Position numbers and translations under genes: made by a program. 44,006 bases of DNA, taken from the IMG/VR virus record IMGVR_UViG_3300024999_000182, positions 1 to 44,006 of that record, one strand, 5' to 3'. The DNA is from a virus. Below, piece by piece: positions 6,247 to 31,824 of the stretch. The first letter of the stretch is position 1, and each line of letters begins with the position of its first letter. Below the pieces are notes generated by a model. That model saw nothing but the letters and a program-made list of their open reading frames with translations. It had not been told where the DNA came from and made no database searches.

Positions 6247-6285
6247 TATATTAATATAATATCGGTTTGTATTTCCAAATGAACG
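6247..6285 (-). promoter_or_regulatory. Class A phage promoter PA1 for the TerS-like/terL operon
   Basis: On the minus strand CGTT is followed by 17 bases and then CGATATTATATTAATATA, the exact layout shared by seven sites in this window. It lies about 210 bp upstream of the TerS-like start. Confidence 0.7.
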
Positions 6286-6584
6286 TGGAGACACGAACTT
6301 ATTTTGTTAGTATCTCTCTCTCTTATTAGTGCCTTTCTCCAGACTTGTTAGTTTTCCATGAATTTTGGGATTTTGCCCCTGTGTTTTTAGCGCATTTACC
6401 TTCTCAGTTGACAATAAGGCCTGTGTCGCCTTGAAAGACGAGATGTTTCCCCCCGAACCATGTCTCCTGGAGGTCCCAAATCCCTGACTTCCTCCGTGTA
6501 GGGTATCTGTTATATCAGTATAGGGCGATGCTTTTCTAAGAATCTATAGCTACTAAGAATTGCTCTTAATAACGAGCGAAAAGA

Positions 6585-6606
6585 AAGATGCGATTTCTCG
6601 CATCTT
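6585..6606 (-). terminator. Rho-independent-type terminator of the 66-aa gene
   Basis: Perfect 9-bp stem (AAGATGCGA / TCGCATCTT) with a 4-base loop, followed on the minus strand by TCTTTTC, 13 bp past the stop at 6619. Confidence 0.75.
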
Positions 6607-6618
6607 AGAATGATTCTT

Positions 6619-6819
6619 CTATTCGATTGTTACGAAGTTAATATTCGTTTGTACTTTAATCTTATTCGCTAATGCGATATATTCTTCTATTAACGTAACT
6701 TCAAACTCGTCTTTGTTCCTGATACATCGTAGCTCATCTACTTTATCTTTGATACTACATAACAGATACTCTACTTCGCATTGCTCTAGCTCTAACTTCT
6801 TCTTCTCTAACATTCTCAT
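6619..6819 (-). CDS. Small helical hypothetical protein, 66 aa
   Basis: Highly charged, Glu/Lys/Leu-rich sequence (MRMLEKKKLELEQCEVEYL...) that should form a coiled coil or helical hairpin; no family recognised. The start has only a weak GAAAGAAG ribosome-binding site, and the second Met at residue 3 is equally possible. It has its own sigma-A-like promoter at 6868-6896 and terminator at 6585-6606, so it is a monocistronic unit. Its neighbour upstream is an HTH regulator. Confidence 0.6.
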   Translation of the reverse strand: MRMLEKKKLELEQCEVEYLLCSIKDKVDELRCIRNKDEFEVTLIEEYIALANKIKVQTNINFVTIE

Positions 6820-6867
6820 CGCTTCTTTCGTCTTACATATTTAGAAGATTTACTCTCTTCTATCTAT

Positions 6868-6896
6868 ATTATATAGCATCCCCTTAAGGGGCTCAA
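6868..6896 (-). promoter_or_regulatory. Sigma-A-like promoter with palindromic spacer
   Basis: On the minus strand TTGAGC, 17 bases, TATAAT. The spacer contains the perfect 12-bp palindrome CCCCTTAAGGGG at 6880-6891, well placed to be an operator between -35 and -10. Confidence 0.65.
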
Positions 6897-6940
6897 GTGT
6901 CTTAGATAAATAAGAAACATTCTAAATACCACACAGTAGT

Positions 6941-6980
6941 AAACTAATACCGATTACTTACTTGTAATCGGTATTAGTTT
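6941..6980. terminator. Strong 17-bp hairpin after the HTH gene
   Basis: Perfect inverted repeat, 17-bp arms (6941-6957 and 6964-6980) with a 6-base loop. It begins 11 bp past the stop of the leftward HTH gene; TTTACT follows the stem on the minus strand. Probably the terminator of that gene. Confidence 0.7.
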
Positions 6981-6991
6981 GCAATGTTTAT

Positions 6992-7357
6992 TTACTTCGC
7001 TTGTTGCTGTTGTTGTAATGCGTATTCCTTAATAATTTTGTAAACGTAATTGTAATTGGTTTTTAATAACTTGCTAATGGTAATATTAGTATTACCTTCG
7101 AGGTATAATTTAATTACCTCGGCCTTTTTACTTACTTTTACCTCGCTTACTACCTCGACCTCGTTAATGTTAACGTAATTACTTACTACGTTGTAAGCGA
7201 ATTGGTAACGTACCCCCATTACCTCGCTAATGGCTTTTACCTCGAGGCCTAATGTAAATAATGCCTTAATTTTAGCGCTTTTACTTACCTCGCTAGCCAT
7301 TACCTTGGTTACCGCTGCCTTTAAGTTTTTTACCTCGCCCGCATTTGCAATACGCAT
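6992..7357 (-). CDS. Tandem helix-turn-helix protein A, 121 aa
   Basis: Two HTH-like repeats are visible. Repeat 1 (about 24-63) is SKSAKIKALFTLGLEVKAIS then RYQFAYNVVSNYV. Repeat 2 (about 77-112) is KKAEVIKLYLEGNTNITISK then NYNYVYKIIKEY. The order 'K..L...G....I......Y.F.YNV..NY' recurs in the proteins at 8058-8771 and 9685-10098, so these are paralogs. A poly-Gln/Ala tail ends the protein. AAGGCGG precedes the ATG by 7 bases. It has its own promoter region at 7383-7430 and terminator at 6941-6980. Most likely a small DNA-binding regulator or architectural protein; the target is unknown. Confidence 0.75.
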   Translation of the reverse strand: MRIANAGEVKNLKAAVTKVMASEVSKSAKIKALFTLGLEVKAISEVMGVRYQFAYNVVSNYVNINEVEVVSEVKVSKKAEVIKLYLEGNTNITISKLLKTNYNYVYKIIKEYALQQQQQAK

Positions 7358-7382
7358 GTTAATACCGCCTTATTAATTTATT

Positions 7383-7401
7383 TAAGGTTTTACTAACCTT
7401 A
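7383..7401. promoter_or_regulatory. Inverted repeat in the leader of HTH gene A
   Basis: TAAGGTT-TTACT-AACCTTA, 7-bp arms, lies between a TATAAT-like box (TTATATAATAAGG on the minus strand, around 7402-7412) and the ATG at 7357. The position suits autoregulation by the encoded HTH protein; this is inference. Confidence 0.4.
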
Positions 7402-7445
7402 TACCTTATTATATAACAAATATGCGGAGAATGCCAGCCTTTGGA

Positions 7446-7462
7446 CATACGAAATTCGTATG
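7446..7462. promoter_or_regulatory. 17-bp palindrome between divergent genes
   Basis: CATACGAA-A-TTCGTATG is a perfect palindrome with one central base. It lies between the leftward HTH gene A and the rightward 42-aa gene, just upstream of the latter's -35 box. Confidence 0.5.
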
Positions 7463-7471
7463 GAGATTCGC

Positions 7472-7500
7472 TTGCAATCTCTCTTAGGATATTATATAAT
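7472..7500 (+). promoter_or_regulatory. Sigma-A promoter of the 42-aa gene
   Basis: TTGCAA, exactly 17 bases, TATAAT, then a start codon 27 bp downstream. This is a near-consensus host housekeeping promoter, so the gene is likely expressed early without phage factors. Confidence 0.75.
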
Positions 7501-7526
7501 ATTAATATAGGAAGGAGGGATTAATT

Positions 7527-7655: not shown

Positions 7656-7658
7656 CGC

Positions 7659-7670
7659 GGGGGGGGGGGG
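7659..7670 (+). repeat. G12 homopolymer
   Basis: Twelve G just after the stop of the 42-aa gene, followed by CCTCCCC and, 19 bp on, by a second run of eight G (7689-7696) preceded by CCC, so the strand can fold on itself. Confidence 0.7.
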
Positions 7671-8057: not shown

Positions 8058-8771
8058 TTACTCGCGACTCTTTGCACGCCTAGCAAAGAAAGCGGATATA
8101 CCTGCACGAGTATCGGGTTGTGCGGATTTCCATAGCTTTTGTTCAACTGGAGGTCTACTGGAAACTGGAGGCTCTTCCCGCGGTATGAACTCCTCTTCCT
8201 CTTCCTCTTCCTCTTCCACTTTCTCCTCTTCTTCTACTTCTTCTATAGTAGCGGCTTGTTCAGTTATTACCGGATCATCTGGAGCTATCTCCTCAATAGG
8301 TTCTATCTCGGGTTCAATCATTGGCTCCTCTGGTTCTATCTTCGTTTCCTCAATGGGAGGCTCCTCAGGTGCTATATTGGCTTCCTTGACCTCGTTAACC
8401 AATACCCGAGCAGCGGCTGCACTCTGTTCCCCAAATTCGCGAATCACCTTGTATATATAGTTGTAATTCAATTTGAGCTCTTTGGCAATTTCCTTATTCG
8501 TCTTTCCTCCCAAGAATGCCTCAATAATGGCACTCTTCTTGGATTCTCCAGTAGTCTTAGATGTTGGAATGTCGTGGATATTCACATAATTACTAATAAC
8601 ATTATACACGAAGTTATATCTAACATCCATTACTTCTGCAATAACCTTAATGTCAAGACCCAAATCAAACAACTGTTTCATCTTCTGACTTTTTGATACA
8701 TCCGAAGCGAAAATCTTCTCTACGTTGGGTTGTAACTGTTCCTCATTTACGATAACATCTGCTCTTTGCAT
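8058..8771 (-). CDS. Tandem helix-turn-helix protein B with acidic tail, 237 aa
   Basis: Paralog of HTH proteins A and C. Repeat 1 is at about 26-66 (SKSQKMKQLFDLGLDIKVIA, RYNFVYNVISNYV) and repeat 2 at about 80-113 (GKTNKEIAKELKLNYNYIYK). A long acidic, proline-containing tail follows (Glu-rich about 130-198, with a run of ten or more Glu broken by Val/Lys), then a basic C-terminus. ATG 8771 is chosen over an in-frame GTG at 8783 because AAGGAGT sits 10 bases upstream of the ATG. A promoter is present at 8827-8856 and a terminator at 8022-8039. The acidic tail suggests a DNA mimic, activator or multimerisation segment; the function is unknown. Confidence 0.75.
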   Translation of the reverse strand: MQRADVIVNEEQLQPNVEKIFASDVSKSQKMKQLFDLGLDIKVIAEVMDVRYNFVYNVISNYVNIHDIPTSKTTGESKKSAIIEAFLGGKTNKEIAKELKLNYNYIYKVIREFGEQSAAAARVLVNEVKEANIAPEEPPIEETKIEPEEPMIEPEIEPIEEIAPDDPVITEQAATIEEVEEEEKVEEEEEEEEEFIPREEPPVSSRPPVEQKLWKSAQPDTRAGISAFFARRAKSRE

Positions 8772-8826
8772 ATATTTGCACACTCCTTATTAATGGGGGA
8801 AATTCACATTCCCTCTTTATATATAT

Positions 8827-8856
8827 ATTATATAACAGGGGGCTTAAGTCAATCAA
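8827..8856 (-). promoter_or_regulatory. Sigma-A-like promoter of HTH gene B
   Basis: On the minus strand TTGATT, 18 bases, TATAAT, about 55 bp upstream of ATG 8771. The spacer contains GACTTAAGCCCCC, related to the palindrome in the promoter at 6868-6896. Confidence 0.6.
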
Positions 8857-9684: not shown

Positions 9685-10098
9685 ATGAAGGTTTTAAATG
9701 CAGGTAAAGTTATGAGTTCTGAGGAAACGGCAGCATTGTTGGCTGATGACAAGATGAGTAAGAGTGCCAAGGTCAAGGCATTGTTTGATCAGGGGTATGA
9801 AGTTAAGGTCATTTCGGATATGGTCGGGATTCGGTACAATTTTGCGTACAATGTGATTCGGAACTACATCGTTGTGAGCGATGTTGAGGTGGTTACAGAG
9901 AAGAAGGAAACCAAGAAGGATTCGGTGTTCAAGTTGTTTGACATAGGTAAGACCTTGGCTGAGGTGTCCAAGGAGTTGAAGATGAATTATAACTACGTTT
10001 GGAAGCTCCACAAGGAGTGGGAGCGGGAAATCGCTAAGGAAGCAGCCGCTGCAGAAGCTAAGGAGGCAGCAGTAGGAATAATATCGCTAGCGAAGTAG
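9685..10098 (+). CDS. Tandem helix-turn-helix protein C, 137 aa
   Basis: Paralog of A and B. Repeat 1 (about 24-62) is SKSAKVKALFDQGYEVKVIS then RYNFAYNVIRNYI. Repeat 2 (about 76-112) is KKDSVFKLFDIGKTLAEVSK then NYNYVWKLHKEW. An Ala/Glu-rich helical tail follows. The start has only a weak ribosome-binding site (GCGAG). Transcribed with the Cys-motif gene and the small downstream genes. Likely a DNA-binding regulator of the same type as A and B, but in the opposite operon. Confidence 0.75.
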   Translation: MKVLNAGKVMSSEETAALLADDKMSKSAKVKALFDQGYEVKVISDMVGIRYNFAYNVIRNYIVVSDVEVVTEKKETKKDSVFKLFDIGKTLAEVSKELKMNYNYVWKLHKEWEREIAKEAAAAEAKEAAVGIISLAK

Positions 10099-13064: not shown

Positions 13065-13736
13065 TTACTTTTCTGCAAAGGCTTTCTCATCGATAGTATA
13101 GGCTAGTAATGATGCACGTACCACCTCTACCAATTCTAAGGTAGGAAATAGCCCAAGGATGCATGATCTCTTATCCTTGGCGTTATAGGAATGTACATCA
13201 CTGTGCATTGTATATAAGCTAAAACCCCCATCACGTTTATATTTCTTAAACTCCACATCCTCCGCCAATAGTATTGTCATGTACTGCGAAAAGATTCTTG
13301 ATGTGGGCAACCATGATTCGGGTACCTCCCCAGAATCAACAAAGGGACGTAAAAATAGCTCTATCAATGTTTCCCCCATAAATAGTAAAGTTGTACCGGA
13401 TCGCTTAGACTTCTCCTCCCTAATTGCAGTATCTGCAGGCCTATAATACTTGAGTAGATATTCATGTGCCTTAACTTGCCACCATTGATCTCCATCATTA
13501 CGCATTCGTGGAGCTTCGCGTATATAGAATAGCTCTTCTTCCCTATAGAAGGCACTAAAGGTTGATGGATTAGGAATTCCACGCAATAAATGCTCTCTGC
13601 CTAATACTTTATCTAGGGTTTTCTGTTCTCGACGCTCAACTAATACGAATATTTTCGCCCAGGCCGTCTGTAGGGCAATCCGTAGCTCCTTCTCGTTCAT
13701 GTCCGCAATTGATTTAATTTGACCTTTACCTACCAT
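13065..13736 (-). CDS. Hypothetical protein, 223 aa
   Basis: Mixed alpha/beta, charged, no recognised domain. Segments such as RNDGDQWWQVKAHEYLLKYY and the conserved-looking C-terminal half suggest a folded cytoplasmic protein. GGGAGC precedes the ATG by 10 bases. It has its own class A promoter (13780-13818) and a strong terminator, so it is a single-gene unit in the phage regulon. No enzyme motif seen. Confidence 0.65.
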   Translation of the reverse strand: MVGKGQIKSIADMNEKELRIALQTAWAKIFVLVERREQKTLDKVLGREHLLRGIPNPSTFSAFYREEELFYIREAPRMRNDGDQWWQVKAHEYLLKYYRPADTAIREEKSKRSGTTLLFMGETLIELFLRPFVDSGEVPESWLPTSRIFSQYMTILLAEDVEFKKYKRDGGFSLYTMHSDVHSYNAKDKRSCILGLFPTLELVEVVRASLLAYTIDEKAFAEK

Positions 13737-13779: not shown

Positions 13780-13818
13780 TATATTAATATAATATCGAAA
13801 AGACAAGGATTTTAAACG
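13780..13818 (-). promoter_or_regulatory. Class A phage promoter PA2
   Basis: Minus strand CGTTTAAAATCC..., 21 bases from CGTT to the perfect 18-mer CGATATTATATTAATATA, about 40 bp upstream of ATG 13736. Confidence 0.75.
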
Positions 13819-16971: not shown

Positions 16972-17625
16972 TTAAAATCTCCCTTGCAGTGTTACATATT
17001 CTTGCCATAGATTGGCCATCTTCTGATCGTGCATGGCCAAATTGGCATACACTGTAGTATCTTCTAGTTGAATCCGCCTAACCTCCAGCTTTTCCCGAAG
17101 TGCCAACAATTTAGCTTCCTTGGCAATACGAGCTTGATGCTGAGTCATATCCACTTTCTCAATTACCCAACGTGTAGCTTTAAGACTGCGGCCATCAGTG
17201 ATATTGGTATTAGAAACTATAGCTACTGTAGCCCCATTAGTGGAAGTATCTACAACAACAATATCTCCGGCGTTGAGATTAAGGCTGGTTTTGAATGAAT
17301 AGTCCTTGCTGAGGTTACCAAATTTGTCCTTGAATTGTACCTGCACGACAGTATTGACCGCTTTTAAGTTTAATTCCATTTTCTTTTCCCCCTTATTAAT
17401 TTGTGGTGTCCATTGGCTAGGTTCTCCATTCACTAATACACCGCACGCGTTACAATGCTGCATCTTTAGCGCTGTGTTATTAGGGTAATTAAAGCAGGTA
17501 CCGCATTTCTTTTCGGTGCCCTTTTCTACCCAATTAGCACCTCCACAACAATTAATGCACTTAACATGCATGGTAAAATCATTAGGATCCTGTTCATGCG
17601 CACAGGTATTACACTTCTTTTCCAT
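16972..17625 (-). CDS. Zinc-ribbon protein with a second in-frame start, 217 aa
   Basis: The N-terminal 60 residues hold two zinc-ribbon-like pairs (CNTC...CINCCG and CGTC...CNACG). A middle beta region (LNLNAGDIVVVDTSTNGATV) and a helical C-terminus follow. At residue 83 (Met encoded near 17379) there is a strong internal ribosome-binding site, AAGGGGGAAAAGAAA-ATG, which could give a 135-aa product without the zinc ribbons. The gene overlaps the GHKL ATPase end by 17 bp, which suggests coupled expression. Function unknown; zinc ribbons suggest nucleic acid or protein binding. Confidence 0.65.
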   Translation of the reverse strand: MEKKCNTCAHEQDPNDFTMHVKCINCCGGANWVEKGTEKKCGTCFNYPNNTALKMQHCNACGVLVNGEPSQWTPQINKGEKKMELNLKAVNTVVQVQFKDKFGNLSKDYSFKTSLNLNAGDIVVVDTSTNGATVAIVSNTNITDGRSLKATRWVIEKVDMTQHQARIAKEAKLLALREKLEVRRIQLEDTTVYANLAMHDQKMANLWQEYVTLQGRF

Positions 17626-18742
17626 AATTTTCCTCCTCTATTTCGTGGAATATTTGATGGAATTCATCTTTTTGATAGGTATCAAGATTATCCTTAATAC
17701 TCTCAAACCAGTTCAATAGTTTTCCCATTGGGGTTATATTCTCCGACACTTCTTTGGGTGGATCTTGATATTCGGGGCAAGATGTAATAAGGTGTTTACT
17801 ACTATTGGATACAATAATGGGAACAGCCTTGGAAGAGTTTCTTTTAGTTTCATCCACCCCACTTTGATCCGTAACCGGAACAGCATTTTCTCCATACTGT
17901 TCGCGAAAATCTACATATGCTGTTGATGTCGGAGTTAAAGATGTGATAGTTTGATATTGAATATGTGCTACGTCTGGAGCATTCTGTCTAGCTAGTTCGG
18001 CAATCTTATTAGAACCAGAAGAGGCCCACATCTGTGAGGCAAGCCACTGAAGATCCCAATCAGATACTAACTTACGATCACGGTCCAATTTGAGATATTG
18101 AGGTAAGAAGTCATACCCATGTATATATTTGGTAGGGCATACAAAGAGACCATTTACATACATGCGCCCTTTGTATTTGTCATCTAATAAGATTCGACCT
18201 TTCGGGGTTTGTATAATTTCTCCCATGTCTTCAATATTTTGACAATGCAGATTGGATTCAACAATCTCTTCCCATTCTTCTGGGGTAATATCATCAATTA
18301 TGATGATCAGATTGTTATTTGGTGGCCTCTTCCAAAAGACTTTATCTACCACAAAGGTAAGAACTTCGGCACCCTCATACTTTCTAGATTTAACCATACG
18401 AGGTTTCCAGGTTTCTTTCTTACCGTAGTTGTAGAAAATAATTTGCTTACCTGCACGCAGAGCCACTAATGTTGCCACTTTATAGCCTTCACCAAATTGC
18501 CCAATAGTATTTGTCTCATTACGTTTAGTGGATGTACCCAGAAGTAATGTTTTAGCAGACAGTACAGATGATTTATTACCAATCTGTAACATGTGTACAC
18601 CATCATAATGGAAGAACATTTCATTGTCTTCTTGAGTGGTTTGTTGGTCTAGTGCGTTTTGAAAGAACTCTCGAACTGCATCTACTAGTGTCCAATTTGG
18701 TACATAGTCACTGGATAAACTTAGTTCATACTTAGTGGCCAT
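17609..18742 (-). CDS. GHKL (HSP90-type) ATPase, 377 aa
   Basis: Residues about 22-34 carry VREFFQNALDQ (N box, Glu and Asn for Mg-ATP), about 83-93 IGQFGEGYKVA (the glycine-rich lid motif), and TFVVDK further on, as in the GHKL superfamily of HSP90, MutL and gyrase B. The usual DxGxG box is represented only by LQIGNKSS, so it departs from the standard. The C-terminal 130 residues are polar and probably disordered. GTP/ATP-dependent switching in complex with its neighbours (18732-19277 and 16972-17625, both overlapping) is plausible. Phages of Bacillota often carry such a gene; its role is not settled. Confidence 0.75.
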   Translation of the reverse strand: MATKYELSLSSDYVPNWTLVDAVREFFQNALDQQTTQEDNEMFFHYDGVHMLQIGNKSSVLSAKTLLLGTSTKRNETNTIGQFGEGYKVATLVALRAGKQIIFYNYGKKETWKPRMVKSRKYEGAEVLTFVVDKVFWKRPPNNNLIIIIDDITPEEWEEIVESNLHCQNIEDMGEIIQTPKGRILLDDKYKGRMYVNGLFVCPTKYIHGYDFLPQYLKLDRDRKLVSDWDLQWLASQMWASSGSNKIAELARQNAPDVAHIQYQTITSLTPTSTAYVDFREQYGENAVPVTDQSGVDETKRNSSKAVPIIVSNSSKHLITSCPEYQDPPKEVSENITPMGKLLNWFESIKDNLDTYQKDEFHQIFHEIEEENYGKEV

Positions 18743-19318: not shown

Positions 19319-19357
19319 TATAATAATATAATATCTAAAATGAAGCGCAATTTAACG
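19319..19357 (-). promoter_or_regulatory. Class A phage promoter PA3
   Basis: Minus strand CGTT, 17 bases, AGATATTATATTATTATA: two mismatches to the consensus 18-mer, spacing unchanged. Confidence 0.7.
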
Positions 19358-19635: not shown

Positions 19636-19938
19636 TTAACCTCCTAAATGATATACCTCTTTGATTGTTTCTAGTGACCATCCACTGGATATACACTTTT
19701 GCACTAGCTCTACAGATTCAAGGAAAGAGTAATATGTATGCGTAGATATTAAAGCAACTACCCGTTGTTGAGGTATAGTCATATCATGATAGCCACTCTG
19801 CTCCACTCTATGCATGTGTTCCTTTAAATATAACTCATATCTACCCAATACACACATCTCCAATCCCTTAAGTAAGCCCCTGAATAAAATCGCAGAGTTT
19901 GGACTCAGCTTCAGCAGCTCCGTATCCTTTAAAGGCAT
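19636..19938 (-). CDS. Hypothetical protein overlapping the primase end, 100 aa
   Basis: Begins MPLKDTELLKLSPNSAILF inside the last 71 bp of the primase-helicase gene in another frame. AAAGGAGAGG lies 7 bases upstream and supports the overlapping start. Helical sequence, no known domain. Confidence 0.6.
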   Translation of the reverse strand: MPLKDTELLKLSPNSAILFRGLLKGLEMCVLGRYELYLKEHMHRVEQSGYHDMTIPQQRVVALISTHTYYSFLESVELVQKCISSGWSLETIKEVYHLGG

Positions 19939-22351
19939 CTACCATCCTCTCCTTTAGGTCATGATCTTTAAGGTCCAGGGTAAGTCCTAAGAAGCATTGT
20001 TGCTTGTTGTCCCCTTTAATGATACACGTACCCTTATCCTTGGCGTAACCCTTCTCCTTATGGATACGCTCAGTGAAGTTTCTTTGTACCATCTTGAGTT
20101 GTCTGGATTTCTCTCCATAGTTATCTTCGCACCAAAATTCGTAGACTTTGTATAAAAGAGCAGTAGACAAACCGACACGCTTAGCTTCTTTACCTCCAGG
20201 ATAGTCTTTATCGATCATTGCTCTAGTACATTCACGCAAGAAGCCTTCCAGTGGATCATTGATTGCCTTAAATTCTTCCAGATTTTGTTGAACACTCTCA
20301 GGAACAATTAAATCCCCGCGAGACATAACTCTACGCAAACCTTCAAGCATCCAGTTAAAGATGCCAGACGTCTCCTGTATCATGTTATACTCCATCTCAC
20401 GGGCCTTGTTCATATCTTTGTCGAATCGATTAGGAAAGTTGATAATGATTTGCCTGCGGTACCATCCGTGCGTACGATCTCGGGTTTTGGGAATATTGTT
20501 GGTGGCAAAGATAAGCCTAGCAATGTTTCTAAATTTGAATGGGTCCTTTCCCTTGTACTCTGCGACCATTTCTTCTCCAGATACAAGAGCTTTGATCTCG
20601 TCAGTATGTTTGAGGTATCCATTTTCTCCCTCATCCTCCGTACATATATTTACCAGTTTGCCTTGAAGTGTAGCTTTACCAAAGCGTTCGGTCATTTTAG
20701 CTGTACTTAACGAAGAACAGCAGTCTTTAAATAGACCCTTGAAGAAGTTCAGTAACATAGACTTACCATTACTACCACTACCCGTAAGAATTAAGAAGCT
20801 CTCTAATTTAGTATCAGGTATTAAGCAATACCCTAAAAACTCTTGCATGAGATTCCGTGAGCCTTCATCAGGTAACCATTCTTGCATATATGATAACCAA
20901 TGCGGACATTCTGCATCTGCATCGAAATCAATGTCAAAGTTAATAGTTGCCCTATATTCCGGATTCCATGGTAATAACTCACCCTTTTTCCAATCTAATA
21001 ACTTACCATTAATTACGATATACCTCTTTAACGCCTCTTGATTGTCGTGCAAATCGAAAGAATGTTCAACTCTCGCACTGTTACTAAGCATCAAGTCTTT
21101 CACGGCTGCTAGAGTCTCATTAATGTAGTGTTCCTTATCCCACGAAGGATCACCGTACTGGGGCAATCGAATATACTTACGTACAATAGCTCTTATAGAT
21201 TGTAGGTAAGCACCACTACGAATAATCCAAGGGCCTTGGTTAGGATTACAGGTATAAAAAGTGTTTGACTTAAGCTCATAGTCAATCATCAATAATTCTT
21301 GGTCTTTCATGAGATTCATTATCATGTGTGCTGTATTGGACGCCTGAAACTTGCGTTCAGATTTTTGATCCTTGTACATAGCGGATTTCTGTGCCTCAAT
21401 CTCGGAAAAGTAATTCACCTTGACTGTAACAGCTTCGTCTTCTAGCATAGGATCCATATATCTGTGATTATAGTCATGCATAAAATTCATGAACACGTCT
21501 TTTGGCATTGCACGATACTCAGGTTTAGATAGAAAATGCCCAACAATCTTTGTCATGGCATCATCTCTACCACCAGCAGAAACTATCTGATAAAGTATGC
21601 TATCTACAGAACTGGTGGATGATTTCTTTTGTGCCTTAACTTGGGTTTCCTTGATATCATACAATTCTTCGGGTATAAAATCGCTAAATTGGTCAGGTTC
21701 GAATTCTTCATCGAAATTTAACACTTGGGCCTTTGGTGCTGCTCCCGCGCTCTTACTTATTTGTGAGACATCAAGTTTAATTAGAGACATCAACCATTTC
21801 GGCGCTGGAGCACAATCCATAACATCCGGACTATGTCCTTCAGTCCATGCATAGATGGCACCAGTATAGTGTACTGATGGTGGTAATACCGTTTGTTGCC
21901 CAGTAGCTAATAGTGCACACTCATCGTGCTCACCCTTGACCCCAGACTTCTTGAATTTCTTTGTGGGTATGCCAATAGGTATAGAATATAATAGACGCCG
22001 CCCACCCCCCGTAGTAAATTCCCAAGTATCAGGTAGTTCTCCTTTAGACATCTCTTGCAGTAATGATTCTCCCGAAGTTCCATCGATATCAATGCCACAA
22101 TATCCAGAAGCCTCTCCCATTGGAAGACCTATATTAAACTTCTTGAACTGGGATAACCATTCACCTACTTGTGCCTCAGTAGTATCCTTTCTACTCTGCC
22201 ATGATGCAATAAGAGGTATCTTACCTGGGCAGTTACACATGGTATTATGCTTCGGTGTGGTAAACTCATGATCATGACTACAAATAGGTATGATGGGAAG
22301 TCCCTGATCAACATAATAATGGGCAGCGGCAACTACGTCCTTATAGGGCAT
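19868..22351 (-). CDS. PrimPol-SF3 helicase fusion (primase-helicase), 827 aa
   Basis: Makes primers and unwinds DNA at the fork. Residues 1-195 match the bifunctional primase-polymerase domain: GIDIDG metal-binding motif near 90, then TTGGGRRLLYSIP, and LLATGQQTVLPPSVHYTG. Residues about 440-680 form a D5-N/SF3 helicase: Walker A GSGSNGKS near 527, a Walker B-like segment LVNICTEDEG near 570, and IARLIFATNNIPKTRDR (sensor/motif C) near 640. GGAGGTG precedes the ATG. Operon order primase - 100 aa - 80 aa, downstream of the ligase. Confidence 0.9.
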   Translation of the reverse strand: MPYKDVVAAAHYYVDQGLPIIPICSHDHEFTTPKHNTMCNCPGKIPLIASWQSRKDTTEAQVGEWLSQFKKFNIGLPMGEASGYCGIDIDGTSGESLLQEMSKGELPDTWEFTTGGGRRLLYSIPIGIPTKKFKKSGVKGEHDECALLATGQQTVLPPSVHYTGAIYAWTEGHSPDVMDCAPAPKWLMSLIKLDVSQISKSAGAAPKAQVLNFDEEFEPDQFSDFIPEELYDIKETQVKAQKKSSTSSVDSILYQIVSAGGRDDAMTKIVGHFLSKPEYRAMPKDVFMNFMHDYNHRYMDPMLEDEAVTVKVNYFSEIEAQKSAMYKDQKSERKFQASNTAHMIMNLMKDQELLMIDYELKSNTFYTCNPNQGPWIIRSGAYLQSIRAIVRKYIRLPQYGDPSWDKEHYINETLAAVKDLMLSNSARVEHSFDLHDNQEALKRYIVINGKLLDWKKGELLPWNPEYRATINFDIDFDADAECPHWLSYMQEWLPDEGSRNLMQEFLGYCLIPDTKLESFLILTGSGSNGKSMLLNFFKGLFKDCCSSLSTAKMTERFGKATLQGKLVNICTEDEGENGYLKHTDEIKALVSGEEMVAEYKGKDPFKFRNIARLIFATNNIPKTRDRTHGWYRRQIIINFPNRFDKDMNKAREMEYNMIQETSGIFNWMLEGLRRVMSRGDLIVPESVQQNLEEFKAINDPLEGFLRECTRAMIDKDYPGGKEAKRVGLSTALLYKVYEFWCEDNYGEKSRQLKMVQRNFTERIHKEKGYAKDKGTCIIKGDNKQQCFLGLTLDLKDHDLKERMVDAFKGYGAAEAESKLCDFIQGLT

Positions 22352-22381: not shown

Positions 22382-23413
22382 CTAGTGCAGTTCCCAAACA
22401 CATGCCTCTGGGGCCTTGCCTGGGTGAAGTTCTAAATATTTGGGATGTCTAGGAAAACCCGCGTCTGTTTTTTGCATATAACCCATTTTGGCTACTTTTC
22501 CTACATACTTATCAGGGTTAGCCGTCATATCGGCTCGGGTTTGTTCGTCCATCCCTGATGAGGTGCAGATTCGTGTTAGTGTGCCGTTTATATAAGCACT
22601 AAGTATAATGGAACCAATCCATCCAAAGTAATAGGGCTTACTTACTGGTAGAGTTACTCCATTTTCGTCTCTCCAGTATGGCCAATTGTCGAAATCCGAC
22701 CCACTATACTCTTTAGTGCATGGCTCAAATCCTGTTATGATAAGATCAGTCTCTTCACTCTGTTTAACTTTCATCCATACCCATAACGGCTTCTTCCCCA
22801 TAAGATAATAGCTATCTAACTTTTTGAGAACGATGCCTTCTAATCCTTGGGATAACAAACCATCAAGAAATTGCTGCTTATGCTCTGTTACCATCTGTGT
22901 CATGTGTATATATGGCTCTAAAGCAGAACCTTTAACGAAGGTATCATAGAAATGTTGCAATATTTTACGCCGCACATGATAAGGTTCCTTCATTAACCAG
23001 GTACCCTTAGGTGTTCGAAGCATATCAAACATAGTGTAGTGAATAGGACCATCATTACCCTTCTGAAAGTTTATCGCTGTACTAGGATCTGCTCCTGTTA
23101 CATGTGTACAATACTGGCTTGTGCGCCCAGGATAATTAATCTCTCCATCGATGATCAAATTTGGCATTTCTAAATTACGAAAGAAGTTATGTAGATGTGG
23201 AAAGTTGTCGGTTTTCTCTATGTGTTCTGCACTAAAGAATAAACTGGCAACTTGAATATAGTGACATCCATCAATCTTCTCTTCTGCAGCATATTCAGTT
23301 GACTGGATTATTTGCTCCATTTTTAACTTCTGTTTGATATTATCTTCCTTAATATGATTCGGCTTCATCACCCCAAGCTTACTTACTAGATTGTATACAA
23401 GCTGTTTATCCAC
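22382..23413 (-). CDS. ATP-dependent DNA ligase, 343 aa
   Basis: Nucleotidyltransferase motifs are clear. Motif I is EKIDGCHY with the AMP-accepting Lys at about 46. Motif III is IIDGEINYPGR; FDMLRTP follows; motif IV is LEGIVLKK; motif V is WMKVKQSEETDLIITG. A C-terminal OB-like part ends the protein. The GTG start overlaps the stop of the RHH gene by one base, with GAGGAGGAGAGG upstream. Seals nicks in phage replication and repair. Confidence 0.92.
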   Translation of the reverse strand: MDKQLVYNLVSKLGVMKPNHIKEDNIKQKLKMEQIIQSTEYAAEEKIDGCHYIQVASLFFSAEHIEKTDNFPHLHNFFRNLEMPNLIIDGEINYPGRTSQYCTHVTGADPSTAINFQKGNDGPIHYTMFDMLRTPKGTWLMKEPYHVRRKILQHFYDTFVKGSALEPYIHMTQMVTEHKQQFLDGLLSQGLEGIVLKKLDSYYLMGKKPLWVWMKVKQSEETDLIITGFEPCTKEYSGSDFDNWPYWRDENGVTLPVSKPYYFGWIGSIILSAYINGTLTRICTSSGMDEQTRADMTANPDKYVGKVAKMGYMQKTDAGFPRHPKYLELHPGKAPEACVWELH

Positions 23414-23580
23414 TAAACCCTCTCCTCCTCGAGTGTAATATCAATGTAAATTCTGGCGGCATGAGCTATGGCTTCTTGCATTGACTCACCCCGCTGGAGC
23501 GCCGTGATCTTAAATATCCTGTGTAGTTCTTTAGGAACACTAGCCCCCAAAAACTTCTCATCTTTCTTTTCTTCATCCAT
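23413..23580 (-). CDS. Ribbon-helix-helix DNA-binding protein, 55 aa
   Basis: The sequence FLGASVPKELHRIFKITALQ followed by RGESMQEAIAHAARIYID has the beta-strand (ASVPKEL), helix, Gly-turn, helix layout of RHH (MetJ/Arc) repressors. AGGAGG precedes ATG 23580. It is the first gene after class A promoter PA4, so it may regulate that promoter or the divergent PA5. Confidence 0.7.
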   Translation of the reverse strand: MDEEKKDEKFLGASVPKELHRIFKITALQRGESMQEAIAHAARIYIDITLEEERV

Positions 23581-23622: not shown

Positions 23623-23661
23623 TATATTAATATAATATTCTAAAATCAGAGATTTTTAACG
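23623..23661 (-). promoter_or_regulatory. Class A phage promoter PA4
   Basis: Minus strand CGTT, 17 bases, GAATATTATATTAATATA: one or two mismatches to consensus, 43 bp upstream of ATG 23580. Drives the RHH-ligase-primase operon and is divergent from PA5. Confidence 0.75.
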
Positions 23662-23876: not shown

Positions 23877-23915
23877 CGTTAAATACATGTTTTGAAACGA
23901 TATTATATTAATATA
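23877..23915 (+). promoter_or_regulatory. Class A phage promoter PA5
   Basis: CGTT at 23877, 17 bases, then the perfect CGATATTATATTAATATA (23898-23915), 46 bp upstream of ATG 23962. Confidence 0.75.
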
Positions 23916-23961: not shown

Positions 23962-24804
23962 ATGGATGAGAACTTAATGGGCGAAATGGAAGCAACACCA
24001 ATCGAGGGTGTAGAAGTACCTGAATCCGTAGTAGGAACAGTTGGCGAGCAGGATGAGCGTAAATGGTTTGACGCCGAGGGTAATGAGGTTTCCAAAAGTG
24101 CTTTCATTCGTGGACAATTCAATGTAGCTAACATGAGCCGCAAGGAAATTTCCGAGGCTTACGATATCCCTTATCGCACAGTATACGGAGCAACAGTGAA
24201 CATGATTAACGATGCCGAACCAGCTACGCGTGGCCGTGGAGTAGTTAATTCCAAAATTGATGTAACTGCGAGTGGACAGGTTCTTACTGTCGTCGATGGT
24301 AAAACATTCCTCGACGGTGTAGAAATGGGCGAAGGTCAAGTCCATGAAGACTTTACTTCGGTAGATCGTAATACCTGGGTGAAGGAACAAGTGGCTGCGG
24401 GTAAAGATCGTGGTGCCGTGGCTAAAGCACTTGGATTGTCTTACGGAGTCATTTATGGTCTGACTAAGGAAGCTGATGGCACTCGCCAGAAACATGAGGT
24501 CGAAGTTGACGGGGTAATGGTATCCCGTTCAGAATACATCCGCCAGCAAATCGCTGCAGGTAAAACTAAAGCCGAAGTCGCTAAAGAGCTGGATGTAGAA
24601 TATTCAGTTGTATGGCAGAGCTGTAAACAAGTTAAGACGGCACAGGAGAAATTCGATTCTGCCCTTGAGATTTTAGCTAAGTTCTCTGATAAGGTTGTAG
24701 ACCAACCAGCATTTGCGTATATTATGGCCCTTCTGCAGGATGTACAAATTTCCCAAGAAGCTCCAGCAGACGCAGTGATGGAAGAAGTACCTCCTGTAGA
24801 ATAA
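23962..24804 (+). CDS. Three-repeat helix-turn-helix protein D, 280 aa
   Basis: Three HTH-like repeats: about 33-76 (SKSAFIRGQFNVANMSRKEI, PYRTVYGATVNM), about 128-163 (WVKEQVAAGKDRGAVAKALG, SYGVIYGL) and about 180-213 (SRSEYIRQQIAAGKTKAEVA, EYSVVWQSCKQV). They resemble the repeats of proteins A-C ('GKT.AEV.KEL....Y..VW...K'). A short acidic tail follows. ATG 23962 has TTGGGGGA upstream; the longer in-frame ATG at 23941 lies before that site. The gene is monocistronic, between PA5 and a strong terminator, which suggests high expression. Likely an abundant DNA-binding protein. Confidence 0.75.
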   Translation: MDENLMGEMEATPIEGVEVPESVVGTVGEQDERKWFDAEGNEVSKSAFIRGQFNVANMSRKEISEAYDIPYRTVYGATVNMINDAEPATRGRGVVNSKIDVTASGQVLTVVDGKTFLDGVEMGEGQVHEDFTSVDRNTWVKEQVAAGKDRGAVAKALGLSYGVIYGLTKEADGTRQKHEVEVDGVMVSRSEYIRQQIAAGKTKAEVAKELDVEYSVVWQSCKQVKTAQEKFDSALEILAKFSDKVVDQPAFAYIMALLQDVQISQEAPADAVMEEVPPVE

Positions 24805-24942: not shown

Positions 24943-25749
24943 ATGTCGGAAAAAGAAATCAAAGAAGTGGTTATCGCACGTCCTTCGAATGAAATCATTC
25001 TTGAAAGACTTACACTTGCGGGTATAACTATGAGAAAGACAGAAGAGAAGAAATATCTGGACAAACCGGATGATCTGGGACCTTTCATTGAGGGTATGAT
25101 AATCCCGGATGGATATAAGAAGTGTGGCAAATGTCATCACGTTATGAAGTTCTTCCTATTCAATAAGAATAGCGGATCTAAAACAAATACTACGGGTAAT
25201 TGCAAGGCATGCCAAAAAACATGTGCTGCGAAATCCTACGACAAGACGAAGTCTAAACGGAATTATAAGAAGTATTATGCCGAAAACAAAGAGCGAAAGC
25301 AGGCACATTCCAAGAAGTATTACGACACACATAAGGATACACTGACGGCCAAGCACAAGGTTTATCATACCTCTGCCAAAGGGAGAAAGGTCATGCAAAA
25401 GGCACATGCAAAACGTAGAGGATTAATGTCAGCCAATCAGGGTATTCCCTATACACGCGAACTGGTAATCGACAGAGATATGCAGGGAAAAGAGTTTCCT
25501 ATCTGCTATTATTGCGTTAAGCCTATTAAGGATTTGTCAGGAAGTTCGTTGCATATAGACCATGTAATTCCTGTAGCTATTGAAGGTAGTGATTGCTTTA
25601 CTAATGTGGCATGTATGCACGACAAATGCAATTTGGTTAAGAAGAAAGATGCCAGTGATGTAACTGCCATTATGATTGCCAATGTGCGTAAGATGTCAGA
25701 AGAGTATATCGATATGCACCCGGAGAAATTCGGCCTAGATGTCAAATAA
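24943..25749 (+). CDS. HNH endonuclease, 268 aa
   Basis: The C-terminal 80 residues hold a zinc-bound HNH motif: CYYCVKPI, then LHIDHVIPVAIEGS (the HxxxH/IDHxxP core), then N..C....CNLVKKKD. The N-terminus has another two-Cys pair (CGKCHH...CKACQK) and a Lys/Tyr-rich helical region with repeated KYY motifs, probably a DNA-binding linker. AGGAGGAA precedes ATG 24943. Free-standing, not inside an intron, so probably a homing-type or packaging-type nuclease placed between operons. Confidence 0.85.
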   Translation: MSEKEIKEVVIARPSNEIILERLTLAGITMRKTEEKKYLDKPDDLGPFIEGMIIPDGYKKCGKCHHVMKFFLFNKNSGSKTNTTGNCKACQKTCAAKSYDKTKSKRNYKKYYAENKERKQAHSKKYYDTHKDTLTAKHKVYHTSAKGRKVMQKAHAKRRGLMSANQGIPYTRELVIDRDMQGKEFPICYYCVKPIKDLSGSSLHIDHVIPVAIEGSDCFTNVACMHDKCNLVKKKDASDVTAIMIANVRKMSEEYIDMHPEKFGLDVK

Positions 25750-25788: not shown

Positions 25789-25821
25789 CCTAGATTTCTA
25801 AATGCCCTTTATTATATAATA
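25789..25821 (+). promoter_or_regulatory. Class B promoter before the sigma factor gene
   Basis: CCTAGATTTCT begins 24 bp before TATATAATA, exactly as at 9267-9299. Confidence 0.55.
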
Positions 25822-25898
25822 GTATTATAGAAAGTTGATTAATTCCAAAACCCAGATTTTTAAAATTGAATAGTGTTCAAAAAGAGGAGTGTGTGGAG

Positions 25899-26741
25899 AT
25901 GTTAGAATTAGAATTGGGATTAGAATTAGAATTAGAAGTTACCGCCGAAGAGGGAGACATCGATGAGGATACAGTCAAAGTAGAGATAGATGAGGCTGCG
26001 GAACTTGTTACGGAAGTCATAGTCGAAAACACCGAAATGGGTGAACTCAAAAACAGAACGTCTCAATTATTTGAGTTAATAGCCTTTGACCCTAATAACA
26101 CTCAGATCTATCGTAATGAAATCATTGAACTTAACATACGTTTAGTACCGCATGTCTTAAAGAAGTATAAACCATTTGGTGATGACGAATTTCAAATGGG
26201 ATGTATCGGATTAATCGTCGCTACTAATTCATTTGATCCTGCCCGAGGAGTACCATATGCCAGCTATGCATGTTTTTGTATAGCACGTGAGCTACACAAG
26301 GCACATAACCACCACCAACATCAATTCGAAGGAGCTATGGGTGAAGGATTAACTTCATTGGATGAGTATTCTGTAGTAGATGGGGAAATGTTTAATAGGC
26401 ACGAAAACATTGCAGATGAAGTATCTGAAGCTGATTTCGAGAAACTACTACAAGATTTCAGCTTGGATGGGCTATTTGACAAAATTATAATGCCTTCCAT
26501 TGAAGGTATATCGAAAGCCACTAAAGGGCAAGATTCAACAGTAGACTTTGATCATTGGAAAGCATTGGAGATGCAGTACCTCATCGAGCTAGCTGAGATA
26601 GACTCACAGAAGTCGAGATTATCACTAACATCCATGGCGAAGAAACTGGGAGTATCTACACAAAACATACGGATGAGGCATAAGCGAGTAATTCAGCAGA
26701 TCAGGCAACGGTGTGTGAAAGCCGGCTATGCAATAAGCTAG
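25899..26741 (+). CDS. Phage-encoded sigma-70-family RNA polymerase sigma factor, 280 aa
   Basis: Region 2 is visible at about 60-140: LVPHVLKKYKPFGDDEFQMG, GLIVATNSFDPARGVPYASY, ARELHKA, the core-binding and -10-recognition part. Region 4 is at about 235-275 with the HTH SLTSMAKKLGVSTQNIRMRH KRV. There is a unique acidic N-terminus starting with a Leu/Glu repeat from a TTAGAA hexamer array. ATG 25899 is preferred (AGGAGTGTGTGGAG upstream). Redirects host RNA polymerase to phage genes; the class A promoters are the obvious candidates. Confidence 0.85.
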   Translation: MLELELGLELELEVTAEEGDIDEDTVKVEIDEAAELVTEVIVENTEMGELKNRTSQLFELIAFDPNNTQIYRNEIIELNIRLVPHVLKKYKPFGDDEFQMGCIGLIVATNSFDPARGVPYASYACFCIARELHKAHNHHQHQFEGAMGEGLTSLDEYSVVDGEMFNRHENIADEVSEADFEKLLQDFSLDGLFDKIIMPSIEGISKATKGQDSTVDFDHWKALEMQYLIELAEIDSQKSRLSLTSMAKKLGVSTQNIRMRHKRVIQQIRQRCVKAGYAIS

Positions 26742-26753
26742 GAGGAAATTATT

Positions 26754-27278
26754 ATGAAGTACAAAGAGATACTCGAAAAAGTTTATCATGGGGATCCATC
26801 CAGGATCCCTTCTCGTCTGCTCTGTTTAGATCCAGGAGAGACCACCGGCTGGGCGTTCTTTAATCAGGGGGAACTTGATCAGTGGGGACAAATTGAAACA
26901 GTAACTATGGATAAACAACCTAATTGGAATGAGCTAGAGAACCTGATATATAACAGTTGCCCCTCCCATGTTGTATGTGAAGACTATCGTGTATATGCCC
27001 ACAAACTTGAAAGACATTCAAATAGTCAAGTAGTTACATTACGCCTCATTGGTGGCATTGATCTTTTGTGCCATCAAAACTATCGCATCGAAAGTTATCC
27101 TAATAGATCTTCCATACCAATTCATTACCAGATGGCTGCGCAGGCAAAAGGGTTCATTACAGATGATCGTTTAAAGGCCTGGGATATGTGGAAAGATGGA
27201 ATGCGTCACAGCCGCGATGCCATCCGGCATGGGTTATATTACTTAATCATCACCAATAGGCCGGGGGCGAAGAAATGA
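26754..27278 (+). CDS. RuvC-like Holliday junction resolvase, 174 aa
   Basis: RNase H-fold acidic residues are in the expected places: CLDPGETTGWAFF (first Asp), HVVCEDYRVY (Glu), and GMRHSRDAIRHGLYYL (last Asp with His). This pattern defines phage RuvC-like resolvases. GGAGGAAA precedes the ATG. It would cut branched DNA before packaging or act in recombination with the Sak4-like protein downstream. Confidence 0.8.
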   Translation: MKYKEILEKVYHGDPSRIPSRLLCLDPGETTGWAFFNQGELDQWGQIETVTMDKQPNWNELENLIYNSCPSHVVCEDYRVYAHKLERHSNSQVVTLRLIGGIDLLCHQNYRIESYPNRSSIPIHYQMAAQAKGFITDDRLKAWDMWKDGMRHSRDAIRHGLYYLIITNRPGAKK

Positions 27279-29001: not shown

Positions 29002-29040
29002 CGTTTATAATCTAGAATTTTTCGATATTATATTAATATA
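29002..29040 (+). promoter_or_regulatory. Class A phage promoter PA6
   Basis: CGTT at 29002, 17 bases, perfect CGATATTATATTAATATA (29023-29040). The upstream 20 bp are almost identical to those of PA7 (TTTTATTAGCCCGTTTA). Confidence 0.75.
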
Positions 29041-29083
29041 GAGCGAAAAGTAACATTTTCTTCTATACACACACTTCTTTCTC

Positions 29084-29127
29084 GGATTTGTCATCATCAT
29101 TTGGATGGGGACAAATTCATTTTTTTG
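29084..29127 (+). terminator. Hairpin plus T-run between promoter PA6 and its gene; possible attenuator
   Basis: Stem ATTTGTC / GACAAAT (29086-29092 with 29110-29116, extended by G-T and G-C pairs) followed by CATTTTTTTG. It lies after the promoter and 60 bp before the TTG start at 29187. Confidence 0.55.
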
Positions 29128-29186
29128 CCGTATAGTGGGAGATACAAACTTCCATAATATATAGGAATAATAAAGGAGGGGAGAAT

Positions 29187-30635
29187 TTGTCAGAACTTAG
29201 CATTGTTCCAAAGGGATGGAAGACCGCTGAGATTGTGTCGCGCGAGTTAACTACTAAGTTCAACATTCGTACAAGCGGACGCAGAACCTTTAGAAGGTGC
29301 CTACGTAAGTGGGGATTCCAATCATCCATGCGTAGTAATCTAGAACGTCGAGGATCCGAAACAAACATCCATTTCTGGTTTGGTTCAGCTATCCATTTTG
29401 CTATGGAGGATTACTTCGGTTACAACAGATTCGGAGATCCACGTAGAGCCTACAGGGCTTATTATGGTGCCTTCAAGGAGAGGCCAGAAGCCGCAGACAG
29501 TTATTATGATTTAGGATTAGCCATGCTAACGTATTTCTTAGAGTGGTATCCGAAACATAACAACGACCTGGAATTTGAAACATTGTGGCTGGATAAAGAC
29601 AATCAACAAACCATAGCTCACAGTGAGGGAGCTCGCCCGGCTATTGAGGAGTCATTCACATTGGACTTAGGTCTCAAAGTAATCGTGAATGCTAGAACGG
29701 GTAAATTAATCGAGAAATTAACTATCGACTCAGAGAGACGTTTAATACGTCCCAAAGCTCCATTGCCAAACGAATTTAATGTACTGGCAAGCGCAGGATT
29801 GCTAGAAGAAGAACCGATTAGATATATGCACGATGATGAAAACTCGGAAATTATTGATGTAGTGATTGTGCCGATATGTTATCATGGTACAATGGACCGA
29901 ATTGTAATTGACAAATATGGACGCTGGTGGATCTTGGATTACAAGACGGCTAAGGGAGCTGACACCAATAAGCTAGATACGGATGATCAAATTAGCTCCT
30001 ATTGTTGGGGGGCAGAGCAATGGTATCAGCACAAGATTCATGGATTTGTGTATCTACAGTTAACAAAGGACGTAGCTAAGCCACCGAGACGCCTTAAGTC
30101 GGGTGACCTGTCTGTTGAGAAGAAACAGAAGACTACGTACCAGTTGTTTAGGGCTGAGGTACTCAAGGATTATGGGGAAGTCAAAAAAGCACCCTCTAAG
30201 ATCATCGAGATGCTTAATCATTTAGCCACACTAGACACACCCGAAGGTGACAGATTTATCCGATGGGATTTAGTCACACGTAACGATGCGCAGAAGATAG
30301 CCACATATCACCACATCATGGGTGAAGTTGAACAGATGATCAATCCTAACTTGTATCTATATCCCAATCCTACACGAGATTGTATGTGGGATTGTGACTT
30401 CCGCAGTACCTGTATTGAGATGGATAGTGGTAACATAGACGAGGCTATCAATGCACTAATGCTAGACTACCAGGAACGTTCTGATAGTAACGAGAGCAAC
30501 CACGACGATTGGAAAAAGGATATCGTGTGGCCGGATTCACCGTTGGAAGCTGCTAAGCTAGACGATGCAGAATTACGTCCTGACCTATTCAATATTATCC
30601 TGCCACCAGAATACGATGAACCGGAGGGTAAATAA
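29187..30635 (+). CDS. PD-(D/E)XK nuclease of the RecB/Cas4-like type, 482 aa
   Basis: TTG start behind AAAGGAGGGGAG. Motifs: HFWFGSAIHFAMEDYF near residue 67 (the conserved G.a.H...E), GTMDRIVIDKYGRWWILDYKTAK near 236-258 (catalytic Asp and D-x-K), QISSYCWGAEQWY, and C-terminal CMWDCDFRSTC, Cys spacing typical of iron-sulphur nucleases such as Cas4/AddB. A 5'-3' exonuclease for recombination or DNA end processing is likely; it is followed by a recombinase and an SSB-like gene. Confidence 0.85.
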   Translation: MSELSIVPKGWKTAEIVSRELTTKFNIRTSGRRTFRRCLRKWGFQSSMRSNLERRGSETNIHFWFGSAIHFAMEDYFGYNRFGDPRRAYRAYYGAFKERPEAADSYYDLGLAMLTYFLEWYPKHNNDLEFETLWLDKDNQQTIAHSEGARPAIEESFTLDLGLKVIVNARTGKLIEKLTIDSERRLIRPKAPLPNEFNVLASAGLLEEEPIRYMHDDENSEIIDVVIVPICYHGTMDRIVIDKYGRWWILDYKTAKGADTNKLDTDDQISSYCWGAEQWYQHKIHGFVYLQLTKDVAKPPRRLKSGDLSVEKKQKTTYQLFRAEVLKDYGEVKKAPSKIIEMLNHLATLDTPEGDRFIRWDLVTRNDAQKIATYHHIMGEVEQMINPNLYLYPNPTRDCMWDCDFRSTCIEMDSGNIDEAINALMLDYQERSDSNESNHDDWKKDIVWPDSPLEAAKLDDAELRPDLFNIILPPEYDEPEGK

Positions 30636-30820
30636 TGCACATCTATGTATCTGTTTATGCCGAGGATTATCCAGATAAGAATTCCCAGGAATATGCAGTA
30701 GCGCAAATTATACCTAACCTCGAGTTGAGAATGTTTGCGGGAGGCGCGGAAAACTTGTTTCGGATGAAAATGGCAGCGGTGGTAGAAAAACTAATACTGG
30801 AGGGTAAAATTAATGGCTGA
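30635..30820 (+). CDS. Hypothetical protein, 61 aa
   Basis: MHIYVSVYAEDYPDKNSQEY... ending LEGKING; beta-alpha pattern. The ATG overlaps the nuclease stop (TAATG), and the end overlaps the recombinase start by 8 bp. Unknown, translation coupled. Confidence 0.6.
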   Translation: MHIYVSVYAEDYPDKNSQEYAVAQIIPNLELRMFAGGAENLFRMKMAAVVEKLILEGKING

Positions 30821-31739
30821 TGCACCGGTTATTCCTTTAGCGGGACCTTTATTTACTATGCGCCAGATGGAAGAAATCTTTGACTGGCAGAACATTCTCA
30901 TTTATGGTGACTTTGGTGATGGTAAGACTTGGTTAGCTGCTTCGGCGATATTTGTGCCGGATATGTGCGATGTGCTCTATCTTAACCTTGAGGGTGGAGA
31001 AAAGACACTGAAAGAAATTGCGCGTATTTGCCGCAAGAACAATATTGACCCTAATCGTATCATGGTTATTCCTGTTGAATCTTATCAGCAATATGCCTAT
31101 GTGTATGAGTTTATGAAGATTCACATCAGGGCCCGAGACGCTAACGATGAATTGACCCTACGTAAACTCGAAGCTCAGGTGAGAGGACTCTTACCCCAAG
31201 TCGTAATTAATGGGGTACTTGATGAGAGTAAGTTAATGGAACTGATCCCTGTACCGCGTAAGTTCCGTACAGTAATTACCGACTCATTAACAGAGGCTCA
31301 AAAGTATTGCATGTACCAGATCTTAGGTATTAATCCGTCCACACAAAAATTGGATGCAGAACCCGACCAGGCTCAATTTCAGGACTGGGGTAAATCGAGA
31401 GAAATGATTCAATTTCTCATCAGAAGGTACCGCGATTTGCACATTAATTCCATTTTCATTTGTGGTCAAGCAATCGAACAAGATGCGCGTAAAATGTTCC
31501 ATTACGAACCCATGTTACCGGGTAAGTTATCCAACGATGTACGTGGACTAGTGGACACAGTTGGATATTTACGCAAAATTCCTCAAGAAGGAGGCAAAGT
31601 TGTACGTCGACTGATCTTGGAGGGTGGAGTACATGGCGGTGCACATTATGCCGCTAAACATCGATATGGCAGTAACCTTACTGGTTTGTATGTGGATGAC
31701 CCAACTATGGCAATTTTATATAAGATGGGATTGGACTAA
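30813..31739 (+). CDS. Sak4-like RecA-fold recombinase/ATPase, 308 aa
   Basis: Walker A is GDFGDGKTW near residue 31-39, with an initial strand NILIYGDFGDGKT. Walker B-like FRTVITDSLTEAQ is near 148-160. The order matches phage AAA/RecA-core proteins (Sak4 group), which anneal single strands together with an SSB. GGAGGGTAAA precedes the ATG. Neighbours are an exonuclease (upstream) and an SSB-like gene (downstream), a common recombination module. Confidence 0.82.
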   Translation: MADAPVIPLAGPLFTMRQMEEIFDWQNILIYGDFGDGKTWLAASAIFVPDMCDVLYLNLEGGEKTLKEIARICRKNNIDPNRIMVIPVESYQQYAYVYEFMKIHIRARDANDELTLRKLEAQVRGLLPQVVINGVLDESKLMELIPVPRKFRTVITDSLTEAQKYCMYQILGINPSTQKLDAEPDQAQFQDWGKSREMIQFLIRRYRDLHINSIFICGQAIEQDARKMFHYEPMLPGKLSNDVRGLVDTVGYLRKIPQEGGKVVRRLILEGGVHGGAHYAAKHRYGSNLTGLYVDDPTMAILYKMGLD

Positions 31740-31785
31740 TCTAATTCCTTCGCTAATTCTGCCTTAAAGAAAAGTTTTATTAGCC

Positions 31786-31824
31786 CGTTTAAAATCTTGA
31801 ATTTTACGATATTATATTAATATA
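31786..31824 (+). promoter_or_regulatory. Class A phage promoter PA7
   Basis: CGTTTAAAATCTTGAATTTT then the perfect CGATATTATATTAATATA (31807-31824), 82 bp before ATG 31907. Confidence 0.75.

Follow-up and report, generated by a model that had tools for sequence, protein, structure and literature searches.

IMG/VR virus record IMGVR_UViG_3300024999_000182, an incomplete linear record of 44,006 bases (the whole stretch is called the window here), carries a two-part motif ahead of several of its genes, and the question it raises is which protein reads that motif. An earlier, sequence-only reading of this DNA had named a phage sigma factor encoded among the sites. Our analysis indicates that this sigma factor, acting with host core RNA polymerase, very probably reads these bipartite promoters, here called class S (our name for the phage-sigma promoter type), in a cascade that passes from host sigma-A to the phage sigma.

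All 44,006 bases were scanned for CGTT-N17-CGATATTATATTAATATA, allowing three mismatches at most. Seven places matched, five of them exactly, and dinucleotide-shuffled controls gave 0 matches in 100 shuffles. The sites are listed below, with related phage records identified by G numbers.

6247-6285, minus strand: class S promoter, exact match, with CGTTCATTTG as its -35; heads the terminase small subunit (5022-6038) and large subunit (3561-5021) genes.
13780-13818, minus strand: class S promoter, exact match; heads 13065-13736 (unknown protein), with 46 bp from the predicted start site to the start codon.
19319-19357, minus strand: class S promoter, two mismatches; heads 18732-19277, whose orthologue in G004 is preceded by a site at 3236.
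23623-23661, minus strand: class S promoter, two mismatches; heads 23413-23580, DNA ligase (22382-23413) and primase/helicase (19868-22351).
23877-23915, plus strand: class S promoter, exact match; heads a helix-turn-helix (HTH) protein (23962-24804) and an HNH protein (24943-25749), and the sigma gene by possible read-through.
29002-29040, plus strand: class S promoter, exact match; heads a Cas4-like exonuclease (29187-30635) and Sak4 (30813-31739); retained in G021 and G024.
31786-31824, plus strand: class S promoter, exact match; heads SSB (31907-32410), QueD/QueE/FolE/QueC, DNA polymerase A, RNR and ThyX.

The coordinates and strands given by the sequence-only reading held for all seven sites, whereas the complete string that it placed at each was found at five; the site at 19319-19357 reads AGATATTATATTATTATA and that at 23623-23661 reads GAATATTATATTAATATA, each departing from the motif at two positions. 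The distance between CGTT and the second box was the same in 7/7 sites, as had been claimed, and the reported 40–210 bp to a gene start corresponds to 44–211 bp between the predicted start site and the next start codon. Orthologous class S positions lie before SSB, the HTH/HNH operon, the ligase/primase operon, the Cas4-like gene and terminase. The site before SSB is retained in G003, G004, G007, G015 and G024, and the divergent pair formed by 23623-23661 (minus) and 23877-23915 (plus) in G004, G007, G015, G021 and G024. Terminase is likewise preceded by class S in G015 and G021; in G007 and G024 the terminase genes lie behind a -35 variant, GTGCAA, with TATTAT. This variant, paired with either TATTAT or TATAAT, was seen at G007:34092 and G024:37020 (the terminase promoters) and at G003:681 (before sigma), and it is possibly a third promoter type.

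The anatomy of class S was assessed from 63 strict sites spread over 17 records of related phages; the same criteria returned 2 sites in 180 randomised genomes. The consensus consists of an UP-like A/T tract, CGTTAAAAATC, 13 bp, TATTAT and A(T/A)TAATATA. The TATTAT -10 begins 24 bp past the C of CGTT, and the discriminator and start region is A/T-only (ATTAATATA). All but one of the strict sites (62/63) fall outside open reading frames (ORFs), in records that are 79–93% coding according to the simple in-house ORF script that also set gene boundaries in the relatives, and in 41/63 the predicted start lies 25–85 bp from a start codon. Several positions that played no part in selecting the sites are conserved, namely a C at -24, AAAAAT(C/A) following GTT, a T immediately 5' of the -10, and an A-tract followed by a T-tract 44–33 bp upstream of the -10, which we take to resemble an UP element.

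The two halves of the promoter also predict one another. When sites were selected by the -35 alone (xGTTwAwAAT, n=84), 51 had the -10 and A/T box at precisely +24 with no more than four mismatches, 50 of these 51 with no more than two; the remaining 33/84 had at least five. When cores were picked by the -10 hexamer and A/T box, GTT was found 23 bp upstream of TATTAT in 42/58 cases, with no other distance occurring more than twice. TATAAT cores instead showed TTG at 23–24 bp upstream, i.e. TTGxxx-N17/18-TATAAT. At the level of sequence, class S agrees with the geometry of RNA polymerase in its -35, -10, spacing and UP-like tract. Long, nearly identical sites might suggest promoters of a phage-encoded single-subunit RNA polymerase, but the bipartite -35/-10 layout with its UP-like tract speaks against this reading, to which we give almost no credence. 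A T7-type polymerase (PF00940) was not found either, a weak negative since the control genomes were silent too.

The linkage between the two elements bears on the identity of the reader. Across all records, GTT occurred with TATTAT 62 times and with TATAAT once, while TTG occurred with TATTAT in no case and with TATAAT 20 times. The -35 and the -10 thus switch jointly, as would be expected of a sigma swap rather than of an added activator. The window also encodes a second candidate regulator.

23962-24804, plus strand: HTH-repeat protein (HTH_23-like), the alternative candidate regulator.

This protein, or a small early paralogue of it, could be an activator bound to the CGTTAAAAATC box while host sigma-A transcribes. 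At T4 MotA/AsiA middle promoters a phage box replaces the -35 and the sigma70 -10 is retained. Class S resembles that arrangement in that the phage box sits in the place of the -35, and the HTH gene has a class S site of its own and accompanies sigma in all larger records. However, the host-type -10 has been lost in class S (62 TATTAT versus 1 TATAAT with GTT at -23), and a joint -10 change (62:1 versus 0:20) is not something an added activator would need. The single invariant spacing also disfavors an activator, and a phage sigma with regions 2 and 4 would have to be given some other job. The sequence-only reading had offered an HTH or ribbon-helix-helix (RHH) activator as its alternative; the HTH version gains from co-occurrence and loses on the joint -35/-10 change, and we regard it as the weaker reading and improbable.

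A second alternative concerns the RHH side of that proposal. A 12-bp palindrome, TATATTAATATA, is present in 6/7 window sites, and it could be the operator of a dimeric repressor or RHH protein lying over ordinary promoters. The core had been described as a palindrome, which is correct for six of the window sites and does not extend to the relatives. The palindrome is intact in only 31/63 strict sites and so is not a constrained feature; several relatives carry AATAATATA instead. Since it is broken in 32/63 sites, the palindrome was rejected as an operator. Among sigma-A-type promoters chosen without reference to the A/T box, a similar A/T stretch with ATA ending at the same place was found in 15/29, and an operator would leave the -35 box unexplained. 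Taken together, we consider an operator reading highly improbable. As it is also present at the sigma-A-type promoters of these phages, the A/T box does not mark the phage sigma specifically, and it is more likely a melting or start-site preference common to both holoenzymes than an operator.

The proposed reader, the phage sigma factor, is encoded on the plus strand between the HTH/HNH operon and the Cas4-like gene.

25899-26741, plus strand: sigma70-family factor with regions 2 and 4, ATG at 25899; proposed reader of class S.

The gene reported at this place is a real sigma gene, with matches to Pfam Sigma70_r2 and r4 and to PHROG 351 ('RNA polymerase sigma factor', 5e-14). On the single protein the Pfam scores (7e-5 for region 2 and 5e-3 for region 4) were both under the curated cut-offs, and in a whole-record scan Sigma70_r2 exceeded its cut-off. 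The nearest NCBIfam models are SigK/SigF/SigG/SigB, and the best match of the sigma profile among PDB sequences was SigF (1l0o_C, 1.4e-16). In an AlphaFold2 model, regions 2 and 4 had predicted local distance difference test (pLDDT) values of about 85–90 and the middle was poor. A Foldseek search with this model gave sigma factors as its significant PDB matches at a low global template-modelling (TM) score, probably because the domains are flexibly placed.

The best named tblastn matches to the protein were SPO1-like phage sigma factors of the sporulation-like kind, and profile comparison with Nitunavirus Grass_166 gave 97.8% (E 1e-12). Sporulation-like sigma factors of some Bacillus phages redirect host genes (PMC9429907). 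The sigma factor of the window could thus be an auxiliary, sporulation-like factor acting on the host while something else reads the motif; its closest NCBIfam models are SigK/SigF/SigG, and its phage homologues include some that are dispensable and target sporulation genes. The tested factors of the Grass_166 type target sporulation genes of the host, and one of them is non-essential, whereas the factor here is tied to a phage-wide promoter class. Each phage has one region-2 match, and it lies in the replication operon of all relatives. An auxiliary role to the exclusion of class S therefore appears exceedingly improbable.

If the phage sigma reads class S, the gene and the motif should travel together, and this is what was found. 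An exact-motif scan of IMG/VR returned two contigs. A protein search with sigma returned one contig whose sigma is identical and two whose sigma is 54% identical; the motif is present in all three, with unchanged spacing. A looser motif scan with whole-record searches revealed clusters of sites in G007, G015, G021 and G024 (57–65 kb), each of which encodes a sigma 40–45% identical to that of the window, and a sigma profile search of the collection recovered solely the motif-carrying records already known. A blind, motif-only scan of IMG/VR with the variant GTTAAAAAT-N14-TATTATAATAATAT, after which sigma was searched for, brought to light three further large records, of 36, 59 and 60 kb, with sigma in 3/3 at E about 1e-80. 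Overall, every record of at least 36 kb with at least two strict sites has a sigma homologue (8/8, three of them found by the motif alone). The pairing extends over ten diverged phages, the window phage and nine relatives, and the class S layout is common to relatives whose sigma is 37–56% identical. Single-hit records from the loose scan look like chance matches, with sigma in 0/8 searched. The cultured Bacillus phage BSP7 shares the replication module and has relatives of the RuvC-like, helicase, Cas4-like, Sak4, SSB, QueE, FolE, QueC and PolA proteins at 28–51% identity. The motif was not found in BSP7, and neither was sigma with the profile that worked in other records, a profile search with no positive control within BSP7 itself. 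The earlier proposal that sigma reads the motif thus draws support from the joint -35/-10 switch, the geometry and the co-occurrence, including the motif-first prediction.

Several points weigh against this assignment. The HTH protein at 23962-24804 co-occurs in G004, G007, G015, G021, G024, G032, G034 and G035, almost as well as sigma, and co-occurrence alone therefore cannot separate the two. Motif sites without a visible sigma were present in the fragments G010, G017 and G030 (17–37 kb). G007 has a -35 variant, AGTTCATTTC, and its single sigma of that type has no unique region-4 residue to go with it. The conserved A/T box extends to about +3, past the usual sigma footprint. Class S sites share descent within genomes and between relatives; they are not independent, and p-values are for that reason optimistic. 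Finally, all conclusions on class S are drawn from sequence.

The sigma gene itself was said to belong to a different promoter class, and this was confirmed. In 9/10 phages the sigma gene is preceded by an exact TATAAT, as are 17% of genes overall (p 1e-6), and 0/10 have class S in the 300 bp before it. The following TATAAT promoters were identified in the window.

25791-25829, plus strand: sigma's own promoter, TATAAT at 25815-25820, with a poor -35 (TAGATT) at 18 bp.
7472-7509, plus strand: sigma-A-type early promoter, TTGCAA-N17-TATAAT-ATTAATATA.
8818-8856, minus strand: sigma-A-type early promoter, TTGATT-N18-TATAAT-ATATATATA; heads the HTH gene 8058-8771.
6859-6896, minus strand: sigma-A-type early promoter, TTGAGC-N17-TATAAT.

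Promoters of the TATAAT kind head the small HTH genes in the early region. The presence of TATAAT and the absence of class S upstream of sigma support the suggested cascade from sigma-A to phage sigma, with the following predicted order. Host sigma-A would first transcribe the early genes for small HTH proteins, as well as sigma from its own TATAAT promoter. The phage sigma (25899-26741) would then join host core RNA polymerase, with region 4 reading the GTT box and region 2 reading TATTAT, and the resulting holoenzyme would activate replication, nucleotide-modification and packaging genes at class S sites. Sigma may be boosted further by read-through from 23877, a possible positive feedback given that its gene lies downstream of that site. 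The small repeated-HTH proteins form a family (6992-7357, 8058-8771, 9685-10098 and 23962-24804), several members of which stand behind sigma-A-type promoters in relatives; they are possible early regulators.

Phage sigma factors with promoters of their own are established in SPO1, T4, phiEco32 and 7-11; the pair described here is new, with a new promoter consensus, and a text search of open papers found no mention of the motif strings in phages. The late promoters read by the 7-11 sigma gp47 are GTAAtg-(16)-aCTA (PMC8948821). Both systems have a lytic-phage sigma with region 4 that, with host core, reads a bipartite phage-only promoter (in our case as predicted), both leave early promoters to the host factor (sigma70 in 7-11), and in both the sites hold their positions before conserved gene blocks. 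The sequences differ, and 7-11 sites serve late genes only, whereas class S also heads replication genes. For Bacillus phage SPO1, the late gp33/gp34 promoter is CGTTAGA-(17-19)-GATATT as quoted in PMC3601020. Going by that quotation, the likeness lies in the -35, CGTT(A)xA, in the distance from its C to the start of the -10 (24 here versus 24–26 in SPO1) and in the sigma cascade. The -10 is TATTAT here, not GATATT, and class S serves replication genes in addition to terminase. GATATT was rejected as the class S -10, its G not being conserved among sites, and the quoted SPO1 consensus showed no enrichment in the SPO1 stretches scanned. Profile comparison of the sigma with the SPO1 gp34 family was weak (39% probability, E 3e-4), and that with the middle sigma gp28 showed no homology (1% probability).

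The pair comes from an uncultured phage lineage without a close named relative, whose diverged members define every promoter element from their sequences. A DNA-level search gave 0 named phage relatives, and sigma relatives among 84,980 species genomes numbered 0, so that sigma provides no host assignment. Potential uses of the pair are as an orthogonal transcription system and as a model for the replacement of sigma-A by a phage sigma at both promoter elements.

A further gene lies directly 3' of sigma.

26754-27278, plus strand: RuvC-like nuclease.

In G021, G032, G034 and G035 the sigma and the RuvC-like protein are fused in frame, and the modelled fusion protein has structural matches to sigma factors as well as to the D. 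radiodurans RuvC 7xhj_B (TM 0.64 by target length). It is conceivable, though rather unlikely, that sigma works with the nuclease and so ties class S transcription to replicating or recombining phage DNA. If true, a sigma joined to a Holliday-junction-type nuclease would couple transcription to DNA structure. The fusions are the unexpected part of the finding and raise a new, testable question about transcription-recombination coupling.

Three other features of the window were observed. The leader of the terminase mRNA (6024-6248, minus strand) is conserved with L008:446-655 of another phage, both fold strongly (z -6.6 and -3.8) to give the same two hairpins, and base pairing is possible between CAATACC, close to the 5' end, and GGTATTG at the ribosome-binding site; Rfam gave no match to this leader and 0 matches within the window. 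A 7-deazaguanine gene set (QueD, QueE, FolE and QueC) at 32508-36119, also found in relatives and partly in BSP7, suggests modified phage DNA. The protein encoded at 17609-18742 has a full-length match to phrog_6077 (unknown function, 1e-82), and by eye its sequence looks like a GHKL-type ATPase.

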